Below are positions 9,658 through 14,177 of a DNA stretch of 64,000 nucleotides, in pieces. The notes under the pieces were generated by a model. The model ran no database searches, was not told the origin of the DNA, and saw only the letters and a program-made list of their open reading frames with translations. Every line of letters starts with the position of its first letter. The stretch's first letter is position 1. Source of the stretch: Synechocystis sp. PCC 7338 (lineage in GTDB: Bacteria; Cyanobacteriota; Cyanobacteriia; Cyanobacteriales; Microcystaceae); assembly GCF_018282115.1 (NCBI RefSeq), contig NZ_CP054306.1:1907488-1971487 (forward strand), read 5' to 3'. The position numbers and the translations under genes were made by a program.

Positions 9658-11388
9658 TTACTTTTTGGGGTATTTAAAGTCAATGCGCCAGATAACCGCC
9701 GCTATTTTAGCCAAGTGTTTTTGTCGAGATTCAATTTTGGCTTCATCCCAGATATCGTAATGTTCGGCGATCGCCTGAGTAATTTGGAAATCGCTTTGGG
9801 CATATACCTTGCGTTTGGTTGCATAATCCCCATTGCCCAGATCTCGATTACGAGCAGTTTCTAGGGGGGTCATGTTGCCAAGACGATAAATTAAACGATC
9901 CTGTTTAACCTCGTCAATGGTAGACCAAGCAGCGGAAGGATTTTCAGGCAGGATATGTTCCAAGTTGTAGGTGGCACTTTCAAAGTCGAAGTCCTGACCT
10001 GATCTTTGTCTCTCGATGGCAAACAAAAGATAACGAACAACTTTTTTATTGCGACTGTAGGTGGTACGGAGTTCTTTATCTGCAAAGGCATTTTTAAATT
10101 GGTCATCGTCGGGATAAACAGCTTGGAGGGTTGCCAATACCTGTTGATAGGTGAAGTAGGTTCTATTAGAAATCTTGACCGCAATATCGTTATAGAGCCT
10201 TTCTTGGTCATGGGTTTGCAGGTTACAAATGACGTTGTAGCGCAAGGAAATAATGGCGATCGCCTTAGTAATACGGGTAAAAGCAGCTCGATCTGAGTCA
10301 AAAAAATGATGATGGCAAGCCAGGAGCATGGCTAAGGGTTGGCGCACGCTAAACATTAATAATTGCTGGAGACTTTGTTTTTCTTCCGTATTCCAGGTTG
10401 GGTCTTGGGGGTCCCGGAGAGCTGCATAGATAGCGGCACACTGATCGAGGCTACGAACCAGGCTAAAAGCATTTTCCCTGCTGGTGATCTGTCGTCGGAT
10501 GGTTTTAAACAAGTCGGATTTACGCACTAGCTTATGGCGACTATTCCAAAATACCCGCAGAAATTCGGGAAAGCTCTCACTACCCAGTAGTCCCACAATC
10601 CGTTCCCATTGTTCTTCAAGCGCCCGCATTTCGGTTTCATGGGTCTCGGCGGTGCTGATCAGGGAGAATAAATAATTTTTCAGCAAGTCGGTGGCGGAAA
10701 GACGCACACCCCTAGCATTGAGGGTTTCAAAGACTTTAAAAGCGTTGAGTTCGTCGGTGACAGTAATAACCGTAAAAAAGAGCTTATCCACCAGGGAGTC
10801 AATGAAGGCGGCAAAGTTCTGCCCGCTGTCAGGTTGATTGCCTAGTCGGGTTTTGAGGCGGTCTTTGAACCACAGGAAAGCTTTCCTAAGTTGATGTTCA
10901 GACGCATTGAGACCCCGTTGGGGAATATGTTCTAAGGGAACTAGATAAGTTTGATAAAAGCGATCATTGTGGCGATTGAGTCGCAATTTTGATTGGGCAA
11001 TGAGGCTAACAGGATCGAGGTAACCGATGTAGCTATTTTGTAGTTGTTCTTGGCGGCGACGGTTGTTGTCAGCATCTAAGCCAGTATTAATTAGGTCTTT
11101 TAAGTAGCTAAGCCCGGCCAAAATCATAATGCTGATGGTGGTCAGGCGTTGTTGGCCATCAATAATATCGAAGCGTTTGCTATCGGAGGATTGCAGTACC
11201 AAATAGCCCATGTAGTGAGCCGGTTCACCGTCTGCTTCAAAAAGAGCAGTAATATCCTGCCAGAGATCATCCCATTCGTCATCGCCCCAGGAATAGTCCC
11301 GCTGGAAGGGAGGAACGTGATAGCTCAGTCCGTTGCCCAGTAGTTGGCGGAAAGTAGAATTGGTGGTGTTGAAATTTAAAGTTGCCAC
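9658..11388 (-). CDS. DUF262-DUF1524 (GmrSD-like) nuclease, third gene of defence operon
   Basis: A 576-residue single-chain protein of the GmrS/GmrD type. The N-terminal DUF262 domain has [10 protein letters not shown] (about residues 25-34), an IDGQQRLTT motif near residue 80 and an [16 protein letters not shown] segment; such domains bind and hydrolyse nucleotides. The C-terminal DUF1524 domain has the HNH-family NLEHILP motif near residue 475 and the RLGNMTPLE helix, so both halves look intact. GmrSD enzymes are type IV restriction systems that cut modified (glucosylated hydroxymethylcytosine) phage DNA. A GTG at 11388, two bases after the HNH gene stop and preceded by a G-rich ribosome site, is chosen over an ATG at 11427 because homologs start MATLxF. 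It is the last gene of the operon with the HNH protein and the ATPase. Confidence 0.82.
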
Positions 11389-11390
11389 GG

Positions 11391-12017
11391 TTATTCCCCC
11401 CCAAATAAATAGTGAATACTTGACCAAAAAGGGTTGAATTCACCAGAGGATAAAGGCAGTAAATATTTCTGCACGAATAAATTAAGCTCTTCCATTGAGA
11501 GAGATTCGTCCAGAAACGGCTCGATCGCCTGTCGGCGCAGGGCGCGTAATGCGGGAATATCTAAACCTAGTTTCGAGATGGTGGTAATGGCCGCTTGATC
11601 CTGATCATGGCGAGGCTGGATATAACCATCAGCAGTAAATTTAAATGATGTTTCACACTTGGGGTCAAGGGGAGAAATCAATAATACTGGGTCAAACCAA
11701 TGACCTTTGAGGTTACCGCAATGACGGGGTTCTCCTTTTTTAATTTGGTTTTGGCAGGAGCAGAGCAGATTGTCAAAGTCCAGAGGATCAACTGTGGGAT
11801 CACTCTGGGGGCGAAAATGCTCTATGTGGGAATCGTTTGGGTCTAGTTTTTGTTCACAGTAACAACAAAGATAGCCTTGTTCTTGCATTAAGGCTTGTTT
11901 AATCGTTCGTTTAAGGTCACTGCCCAGGGTTGCATAACTGGGCTGCCAATGGTCGTTGCTTTGTTGTTTCCAATGGTGGAGTTCCGGCGGTTCTGCTTGT
12001 TTTTGGATATATTTCAT
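11391..12017 (-). CDS. PtuB-like HNH endonuclease (TIGR02646 type), second gene of defence operon
   Basis: A 208-residue HNH nuclease of the family linked to retrons and to the Septu (PtuAB) defence system. The metal and catalytic layout is visible: CCYCEQ at residues 51-56, HIEHFRP at 64-70, DNLLCSC at 82-88 and HCGNLKG at 99-105, which together give the paired-cysteine zinc site and the His-containing beta-beta-alpha-metal finger. Its start codon overlaps the stop of the ATPase gene by 4 bases (ATGA), so the two are translationally coupled, as expected for partners. No reverse transcriptase or retron RNA is next to it, which argues for a Septu-like rather than a retron arrangement. Confidence 0.83.
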
Positions 12018-13276
12018 CGACCAATGATCTCCTTGCGTCGAATCAGCACCTCGGCCTTGACCAATTCAGGATCGTTACCGATCGCCGCTTTCATTTCGGT
12101 AATCGCCTGTTGAGCTACGGGGAGTTGACCTTGATCGATCAGTTGGTAAATGTGATGAAGATCTTGACTAACTTGTTGGGGTCGGGTGGTGTCTAAACCC
12201 ATGAGGTCTTCCAAAATTCGGTCTACCGTTTTCCCGTAGGATGCACTGGGTTGAGTGACGGTGATATTATCGGGAGTTTGGGTCAGGAGAAAAATATTGT
12301 CGGGCTGGACATGGGTTAGGACATGGGGCGAATGGGTGGAAACGATAAATTGACAGTTAGGAAACACCTTAACGAGTTGAGGAATAATCATTCGCTGCCA
12401 AGTGGGATGGAGATGCAGATCGATTTCATCAATCAAAACGATGCCATCTCCCTCTAGGGGTTTCCCAATGGGGTTGGCGATCGCCAAACGCCGGGCCAGA
12501 TCACTAACCATTGCAATCAGACATTTTTCCCCATCGGAGAGTTGATTAATGGCGAAGAATTGCCCCCGCTTTTGAATTTCCATTCTGAGAGGATTTCGCC
12601 TCACGTTTAAATTTTCAAAGTCAGGCAGGAACTGCTTTAAAGCACTACGAACCGCTTCTAGTTGAGGATCAGGCCTGAAATCTTGAGAATGGGTTAAAAA
12701 CTTTCGACTTTCGTTCTCTAAATCTTCACGTTCTCTAAACCACTGAAAAAAAGGATTGAATGTGGAACTTCCGGTTAAGGCTTGATCATAGGCTCCCATC
12801 AAATCAAAGGTCTGGTTCTGTCTAGGTTCTAGGGAAATTTTGGTTACAGCCCGGCCCACGGGATAAAAAATGAATATTGGGATATTTGTCTGTCCTTTTG
12901 TAGCTGTGATACTAGCTTGTATCTTTGCTGCGTACTTATCCAATGAGGCAAAATCACTAAAATTAAGGGACGAAGAATGGCCTTGACGACTTTTGCCAAC
13001 TAACCATTTCACTGGTTTGTCATCGTCAACAAAGCTTATTTCAATTGAAGTATTGGGTTCGCCAATCTTAATATCCTCTTCTGAGATTGAATTTCCTTTT
13101 TTTCCAAGGCTCCGAATCCGACTAATCGCCCAGGACAACATGAGGGCGATCGCATCAAGAACAGTGGATTTACCCGCCCCATTACAACCCACCAGCACGT
13201 TTAAGCGGGGCTGCAACTCCATTGTCAAGGACTGCGCTCCACGATAATTGTGCAGGCTTAGGGTTTTGATGTGCAT
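12014..13276 (-). CDS. PtuA-like ABC/SMC-type ATPase, first gene of defence operon
   Basis: A 420-residue ATPase of the AAA_15/AAA_21 type. Walker A is GCNGAGKST at residues 30-38, the ABC signature is LSDGEK, Walker B is IVLIDEIDLHLHP near 279-291 (catalytic Glu284) and the H-loop is STHSPH near 313. No TOPRIM domain follows, unlike OLD nucleases, which fits PtuA of Septu; there the ATPase holds the HNH partner inactive until infection. The ATG at 13276 is 108 bases from the divergent antitoxin gene start, and the shared space holds the palindrome at 13326-13342. First gene of a three-gene operon with the HNH and DUF262 proteins. Confidence 0.83.
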   Translation of the reverse strand: MHIKTLSLHNYRGAQSLTMELQPRLNVLVGCNGAGKSTVLDAIALMLSWAISRIRSLGKKGNSISEEDIKIGEPNTSIEISFVDDDKPVKWLVGKSRQGHSSSLNFSDFASLDKYAAKIQASITATKGQTNIPIFIFYPVGRAVTKISLEPRQNQTFDLMGAYDQALTGSSTFNPFFQWFREREDLENESRKFLTHSQDFRPDPQLEAVRSALKQFLPDFENLNVRRNPLRMEIQKRGQFFAINQLSDGEKCLIAMVSDLARRLAIANPIGKPLEGDGIVLIDEIDLHLHPTWQRMIIPQLVKVFPNCQFIVSTHSPHVLTHVQPDNIFLLTQTPDNITVTQPSASYGKTVDRILEDLMGLDTTRPQQVSQDLHHIYQLIDQGQLPVAQQAITEMKAAIGNDPELVKAEVLIRRKEIIGR

Positions 13277-13325
13277 GGCTGCGGTTGAATGCCTGTTAAC
13301 TGGTAGAAGTCATGGAAAGCTTTTT

Positions 13326-13342
13326 CATTGTAATGTACAATG
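13326..13342. promoter_or_regulatory. Palindromic operator overlapping the -10 box of the toxin-antitoxin operon
   Basis: CATTGTA and TACAATG form a perfect 7-base inverted repeat around the spacer ATG. The right arm contains TACAAT (13336-13341), a good -10 box, about 44 bases upstream of the antitoxin ATG. Ribbon-helix-helix antitoxins usually repress their own operon by binding such palindromes, so this is the likely autoregulatory operator. It lies between the divergent antitoxin and ATPase genes and could influence both. Confidence 0.6.
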
Positions 13343-13384
13343 TGAGCACAAGTGATGGGCATTAAGAATCCCTGTTAACAAGTT

Positions 13385-13669
13385 ATGAATAGCAAAGCTT
13401 CCCAGACTAAGGACGAGCGTGTGCAGTTGCGTTTAACCCAACGACAGAAAGCAACAATCCAGCAAGCGTCTCAGATTAAACAGACATCGATGACCAATTT
13501 TATATTGGATCAATCCTACCAGGCAGCTTTGACGGTGGTGGCCAATCAGCAATTATTTTCCCTATCGGATCAGGCCTGGGATGACTTTTGTATAGCATTG
13601 GAATCACCTCCGAAATCTTTACCCCGTTTGCACGCCCTCTTAACGGAGCCTGGGGTGTTCGATGACTAG
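13385..13669 (+). CDS. DUF1778 ribbon-helix-helix antitoxin (TacA-like)
   Basis: A 94-residue DUF1778 protein. The N-terminal part (about residues 11-45) has the ribbon-helix-helix pattern RVQLRLTQRQKATIQQAS, giving a DNA-binding dimer; the C-terminal part (SLSDQAWDDFCIALESPP) is the region that in TacA-type antitoxins covers the acetyltransferase active site. It overlaps the GNAT gene by 8 bases, the usual arrangement for this toxin-antitoxin family. It is expected to neutralise the toxin and, with it, repress the promoter at 13326-13342. Confidence 0.85.
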   Translation: MNSKASQTKDERVQLRLTQRQKATIQQASQIKQTSMTNFILDQSYQAALTVVANQQLFSLSDQAWDDFCIALESPPKSLPRLHALLTEPGVFDD

Positions 13670-14177
13670 GGGGAAATCATTCCAGGCCCCGATCGCCTTA
13701 GAGCCTAGCCATGATCTGGGGAGTTTTGATTGTGGCGTTCCTGAACTGAATCTGTTTTTGCAGAAATATGCGTTGACCAATAGCCGTAACCACACTGCCA
13801 AAACCTTTGTAGCGTTAGGGGAGGCTGGGCAGGTGATTGGTTTTTATAGTTTGGTCGCGGGGGCGGTGGAGCATGGGGCCGTACCACCGAGGGTGAGTAA
13901 GGGTTTGGGGAAATATCCGATTCCGGTCATTGTTTTGGCGCGATTGGCGGTGGATCGGCGTTATCAAGGTCTGGGGTTGGGAAAAGGTTTATTAAAAGAT
14001 GCATTGTTGCGATGTTTGAATGTGGTGGAGCAAATTGGGGCAAGGGCGATCGCCGTCCATGCCAAGGATGAGGAAGCGGCGGCGTTTTATGAACGCTATG
14101 ATTTTGAGCGATCGCCGTTGTCGGAATGTCATTTATATTTATTGGTCAAGGATATTAGTAAGACGGCGGGGATTTAG
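13662..14177 (+). CDS. GNAT acetyltransferase toxin (TacT/AtaT-like)
   Basis: A 171-residue Gcn5-related N-acetyltransferase. The acetyl-CoA binding motif is QGLGLGKG at residues 102-109, and AFYERYDF (Tyr143 as probable catalytic residue) is near residue 141. Toxins of this family acetylate the amino group of aminoacyl-tRNA and stop translation. The gene starts inside the end of the DUF1778 antitoxin gene (8-base overlap). All core motifs are present, so it looks active. Its 3' end overlaps by 39 bases with a small convergent open frame downstream of priA. Confidence 0.83.
   Translation: MTRGKSFQAPIALEPSHDLGSFDCGVPELNLFLQKYALTNSRNHTAKTFVALGEAGQVIGFYSLVAGAVEHGAVPPRVSKGLGKYPIPVIVLARLAVDRRYQGLGLGKGLLKDALLRCLNVVEQIGARAIAVHAKDEEAAAFYERYDFERSPLSECHLYLLVKDISKTAGI

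Follow-up and report, generated by a model that had tools for sequence, protein, structure and literature searches.

A cyanobacterial operon that joins a Septu-type PtuAB pair to a GmrSD-type nuclease: known defence modules in a new combination

Three adjoining genes of Synechocystis sp. PCC 7338, predicted to encode an ATPase, an HNH nuclease and a DUF262/DUF1524 protein, raise the question of whether such a cassette represents a single new anti-phage machine or two defences placed in one operon. The genes lie in a window of 64,000 nucleotides, the whole stretch of DNA analysed, and are arranged as follows.

9658-11388, minus strand: gmrSD, 576 aa, GTG start; Pfam GmrSD_N and GmrSD_C, PADLOC HEC-06/Orf5.
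11391-12017, minus strand: ptuB-like gene, 208 aa, ATG start; ATGA overlap with ptuA.
12014-13276, minus strand: ptuA-like gene, 420 aa, ATG start; first in the operon.
13277-13384, no strand: divergent intergenic region between ptuA and a tacA-like antitoxin gene; likely operon promoter.

The open reading frames and their coordinates agree with the minus-strand operon proposed in a sequence-only reading of this DNA, with a 4-base overlap between the ATPase and HNH genes (the shared ATGA at 12014-12017) and a gap of 2 bases from the stop codon of ptuB (11391) to the GTG of gmrSD (11388). An alternative, longer gmrSD start, TTG at 11427, would run into ptuB. The three genes are presumably co-transcribed; a promoter scan of 13277-13384 gave chance-level matches, as did terminator patterns between the genes, where no clear terminator was found. 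Pfam and PADLOC scores for the three proteins are far above chance, and dN/dS values relative to Synechocystis salina are 0.16 for ptuA, 0.19 for ptuB and 0.06 for gmrSD, so all three genes are maintained by purifying selection. The cassette is real and intact and is probably functional. Divergent from ptuA (13385-14177, plus strand) are genes for a TacA-like antitoxin (PF08681) and a GNAT acetyltransferase that overlap by 8 bases; this pair is a TacAT-type toxin-antitoxin.

All three proteins keep the key motifs previously ascribed to them. The PtuA-like protein is an OLD/ABC-type ATPase (Pfam AAA_21/AAA_15) with a Walker A motif (GCNGAGKST, 30), an LSDGE signature (246), a Walker B motif (LIDEIDLHLHP, 281) and STHSP (313). 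PtuB carries CCYC (51), HIEHF (64, including H67) and N83, and its catalytic residues H67 and N83 are invariant. The PtuB-like protein scores 103 bits against TIGR02646 (cut-off 52), and the best PADLOC matches are PtuA1 (506 bits) and PtuB1 (289 bits), which bears out the proposed Septu layout of an ATPase with a TIGR02646-type HNH protein. By phmmer, PtuA matches the solved PtuA chains 9e8z (E 8e-58) and 8ee4 (E 5e-40), and the nearest structures for PtuB are PDB PtuB chains (E 9e-11). Against the NCBIfam equivalog models of the retron Ec78 proteins, both fall short of the cut-off (PtuA, 337 of 500; PtuB, 123 of 150), which is consistent with another PtuAB clade, one whose ATPase is shorter. 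As in Septu type I, a PtuA-family ATPase adjoins a PtuB-family HNH protein, a pairing seen in 33 loci, and the Walker A/B and HNH catalytic residues are retained. Assignment to retron I-A (Septu type II) was rejected: the ORF list holds no reverse transcriptase adjoining PtuAB, and Rfam gave no match to a retron RNA at the locus.

The third protein exceeds the Pfam cut-offs for both GmrSD_N (130 bits) and GmrSD_C (101 bits), and PADLOC matches it to HEC-06 over nearly its full length (812 bits) and to Orf5 (813 bits). Its motifs are FQRDYSW (28), DGQQR (77), FETLN (220) and EHILP (477); it thus combines in one chain the QR, DGQQR and FxxxN motifs of DUF262 and the DUF1524 nuclease that mark the HEC-06 group. 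An AlphaFold2 model built on a 4-row alignment has a mean pLDDT of 48.8 and was set aside for that reason. A scan of viral contigs found no GmrSD, and in phages there were two matches only, at 26% identity. The organism's own genome (3.8 Mb) holds five DUF262 (GmrSD_N) genes. Elsewhere among the cyanobacteria, relatives in L025, L029, L031, L087 and L094 are either interrupted by an in-frame stop in the matching region or reduced to fragments, which suggests that gmrSD is often lost.

PtuA and PtuB are always paired: in all PtuAB loci found, the two genes are neighbours and overlap slightly. GmrSD, in contrast, is an optional companion. Of 33 PtuAB loci, 4 have GmrSD next to the pair, and of 34 GmrSD loci, 4 have PtuAB as a neighbour; these counts cover all loci fetched and are approximate because some contigs are short. 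Across 386 cyanobacterial genomes, a PtuB relative was detected in 52 and a GmrSD relative in 43 at the thresholds used, with adjacency confined, among the loci retrieved, to the genus Synechocystis. The 369 gammaproteobacterial genomes yielded GmrSD in 7 and PtuA in 4, with both only in Lamprobacter; as that sample was built around Lamprobacter, its presence there is biased. Searches of plasmids gave no triad. Across the lineages compared, the three genes are therefore not conserved in co-occurrence or order. The sequence-only reading would have taken adjacency at this one locus alone as fatal to a three-part system; the adjacency is not so limited, because an independent gammaproteobacterial triad exists.

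The four triads are those of the window, Synechocystis salina LEGE 00031, RI_101 and Lamprobacter modestohalophilus. In S. salina the triad occupies the same site as in the window (90% identity over 13.4 kb) and is vertically inherited; in an empty-site comparison with a related Synechocystis (G014), homologues of the flanking NAGPA and nusB genes proved to be separated. RI_101, of the same genus, has its triad elsewhere in the chromosome, next to murG and to a mazEF-like pair; the latter adjoins ptuA, where the window has its TacAT-type pair. At that locus (L015:7001-11283) ptuA is intact and ptuB is broken at about codon 104, where a deletion joins it to a GmrSD remnant; a PEP-CTERM-like gene comes next, and then a full GmrSD. 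This intact copy lies 2 kb downstream and shares 92% DNA identity with the remnant. In Lamprobacter the order is brxA-brxB-brxC-(AAA module)-pglX-ptuA-ptuB'-gmrSD, at a contig end (pglX was called by PADLOC; brxA, brxB and brxC were read off the ORFs). Its ptuB encodes 153 aa: the C-terminal 55 aa are missing but the HNH core is retained, and the gene shares an ATGA with gmrSD. An extra ATPase and a 180-aa protein are encoded between brxC and pglX (L164:7124-8727), and this BREX locus therefore holds at least three inserted modules.

The PtuA tree places Lamprobacter with Marinobacter and Acidithiobacillus, both without GmrSD beside PtuAB, and the Synechocystis and RI_101 sequences with other cyanobacteria; a single clade of the four GmrSD-linked PtuAs, and with it a single vertical origin of the triad, was rejected (AU p = 9.9e-6). 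The triad GmrSDs are 78-92% alike and belong to a clade that includes Septu-free GmrSDs from a Pseudanabaena plasmid (81%) and G141 (76%); further relatives without PtuAB occur in G451 (66%) and in G002, G066 and G296 (63-64%). Therefore, the association was gained at least twice, or GmrSD moved between Septu loci. Synonymous divergence of GmrSD between window 9658-11388 and L096:6631-8352 is 0.73 (bootstrap 0.64-0.92), compared with 0.25-0.56 for ptuA, ptuB and flanking genes (ten neighbours), about a twofold difference, which suggests a separate history for the GmrSD allele. This is consistent with separate allelic replacement of GmrSD between the two Synechocystis genomes, and even inside this genus the gene seems to have undergone exchange of its own.

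Both PtuAB and GmrSD are already-described auxiliary modules, and GmrSD as well as dyads of OLD-ABC and HNH proteins have been reported as BREX auxiliary effectors (PMC12839542). The clade to which the window's PtuAB belongs is found repeatedly as an insert in BREX loci: in Marinobacter, a Sericytochromatia MAG and G447, the pair is flanked by pglX on one side and pglZ-brxL on the other (PglX, PglZ and BrxL by PADLOC). BREX type I operons hold PtuAB at L009, L010, L011 and L152 (and L014); it takes the pglX / pglZ-brxL position where the contig shows it, with short gaps or overlaps on both sides, the BREX context of L010 and part of L152 being assigned by matching ORFs. Type I restriction-modification operons contain a diverged PtuAB in Ketogulonicigenium and a GmrSD relative (53%) in Paracoccus. 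The earlier statement that GmrSD-type proteins are normally stand-alone is thus correct in part: HEC-06 acts alone, according to a passage of PMC11411939 that cites Payne and colleagues, and BrxU acts independently of BREX (PMC8565348), but such genes are often also embedded in type I restriction-modification, BREX and Hma operons. A decayed BREX locus was considered for the window and rejected, as no PglZ was found in its genome.

Septu and GmrSD are each usually found without the other, and we therefore consider it most likely, with a probability of roughly 0.77, that the cassette is a co-transcribed stack of two self-sufficient anti-phage defences. Of the possibilities raised at the outset, it is the composite, two defence modules in one operon, that best describes the locus. 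The first module would be Septu type I, a complex of the PtuA ATPase and the PtuB HNH nuclease that stays quiet until infection and then may cleave nucleic acid (tRNA or DNA, by variant), stopping phage growth. PtuAB is active without a third gene (PMC13096335), and its relatives in Septu EcB88 (PMC13096335) and retron Eco7 (PMC11555353) cleave tRNA-Tyr. The second would be a GmrSD of HEC-06/BrxU type, whose DUF262 domain is predicted to use NTP and sense modified phage DNA and whose DUF1524 His-Me nuclease would cut that DNA; GmrSD enzymes are known for NTP-using cleavage of modified DNA (PMC8565348). The gmrSD gene was probably acquired downstream of ptuB in Synechocystis and, as a separate event, in Lamprobacter. 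Most simply, two layers, modified-DNA restriction and an infection-triggered nuclease, would be expressed together and act independently.

Some observations count against so plain a stack. The tight spacing in both Synechocystis genomes and Lamprobacter suggests that expressing the genes together was selected for. Naive chance would not predict that one gene order with one GmrSD subfamily should arise at least twice, and within the Synechocystis lineage the triad occupies two chromosomal sites, that of the window and that of RI_101. The spacing of the genes, together with the two independent associations, would also suit coupled layers, in which PtuAB guards or backs up GmrSD and fires when a phage protein inhibits GmrSD (compare PARIS with Ocr) or on DNA nicked or cut by GmrSD; type IV restriction would thus trigger, or be backed by, abortive tRNA or DNA cleavage. 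OLD-ABC/nuclease dyads have been proposed as BREX back-up effectors (PMC12839542), T4 injects the specific GmrSD inhibitors Ip1-3 (PMC12373910), and a report quoted in PMC11555353 gives nicked DNA as the target of PtuAB from E. coli ATCC25922. However, most PtuAB loci lack an adjoining GmrSD, most close GmrSDs lack PtuAB, and GmrSD persists beside the broken ptuB of RI_101 and the truncated one of Lamprobacter. We regard such coupling as unlikely.

The infrequency of the association, and a tacAT-like toxin-antitoxin pair just upstream in keeping with the clustering of defence genes, could instead mean that GmrSD landed downstream without selection, as a chance neighbour in a defence hot spot. 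Intact frames, dN/dS of 0.06-0.19, retention in both Synechocystis genomes and two gains of the same gene order argue against this, and we hold it to be quite improbable. A complex of three obligatory subunits, in effect a Septu type whose third subunit is GmrSD, is what three genes in one operon with a 4-base overlap and a 2-base gap might lead one to expect, but we give it very little credence: GmrSD is intact next to a broken or truncated ptuB, the phylogenies and synonymous divergences are separable, and published work has HEC-06 and Septu each acting by itself. The proposal of a new three-part system is more generally not supported, given the rarity of the adjacency, the absence of PtuAB from the closest outside relatives of GmrSD and the two or more origins of the triad. 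In addition, a PADLOC search for added Septu genes reported reverse transcriptase as the only third gene (PMC8565338).

We conclude that the cassette, most likely a stack of separate defences, is a new combination of known modules and not a new three-part machine. The PtuA-PtuB-GmrSD arrangement was not found in the literature searched, in line with the initial remark that no described system joins these three; the 15 GmrSD groups of enterobacteria are one-gene or two-GmrS systems (PMC12373910). The locus shows separate defences stacked in one operon, with the same two modules having met at least twice, once inside BREX, and the known families gain from it an uncharacterised Septu and an uncharacterised HEC-06 of cyanobacterial origin. 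If the layers were coupled, it would become possible to test whether OLD-ABC/nuclease pairs protect restriction enzymes from phage inhibitors by acting as guards.

Among known systems, Septu type I shares with the window the tandem ATPase and TIGR02646-type HNH genes with Walker and HNH residues kept; the window differs in a PtuA (420 aa) shorter than the retron Ec78 form and in the GmrSD gene that follows. Septu type II (retron I-A; Eco7, Eco4) has PtuAB effectors too, and its solved PtuA structures are the nearest PDB matches, but the window pair has neither an adjoining reverse transcriptase ORF nor an Rfam retron RNA match. HEC-06 and BrxU (HEC-05), single-chain GmrSD type IV restriction enzymes, have the same DUF262 and DUF1524 domains with all motifs, whereas the partner operon here is Septu and not Hma, BREX or type I restriction-modification. 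In the two-gene systems TgvAB and GrwAB a GmrSD-type nuclease likewise has an operon partner, although that partner is a second DUF262 protein and not an ATPase/HNH pair. BREX loci with auxiliary nucleases (PMC12839542) carry both kinds of module as cargo, as the Lamprobacter BREX locus does, whereas the window cassette has both without BREX genes.
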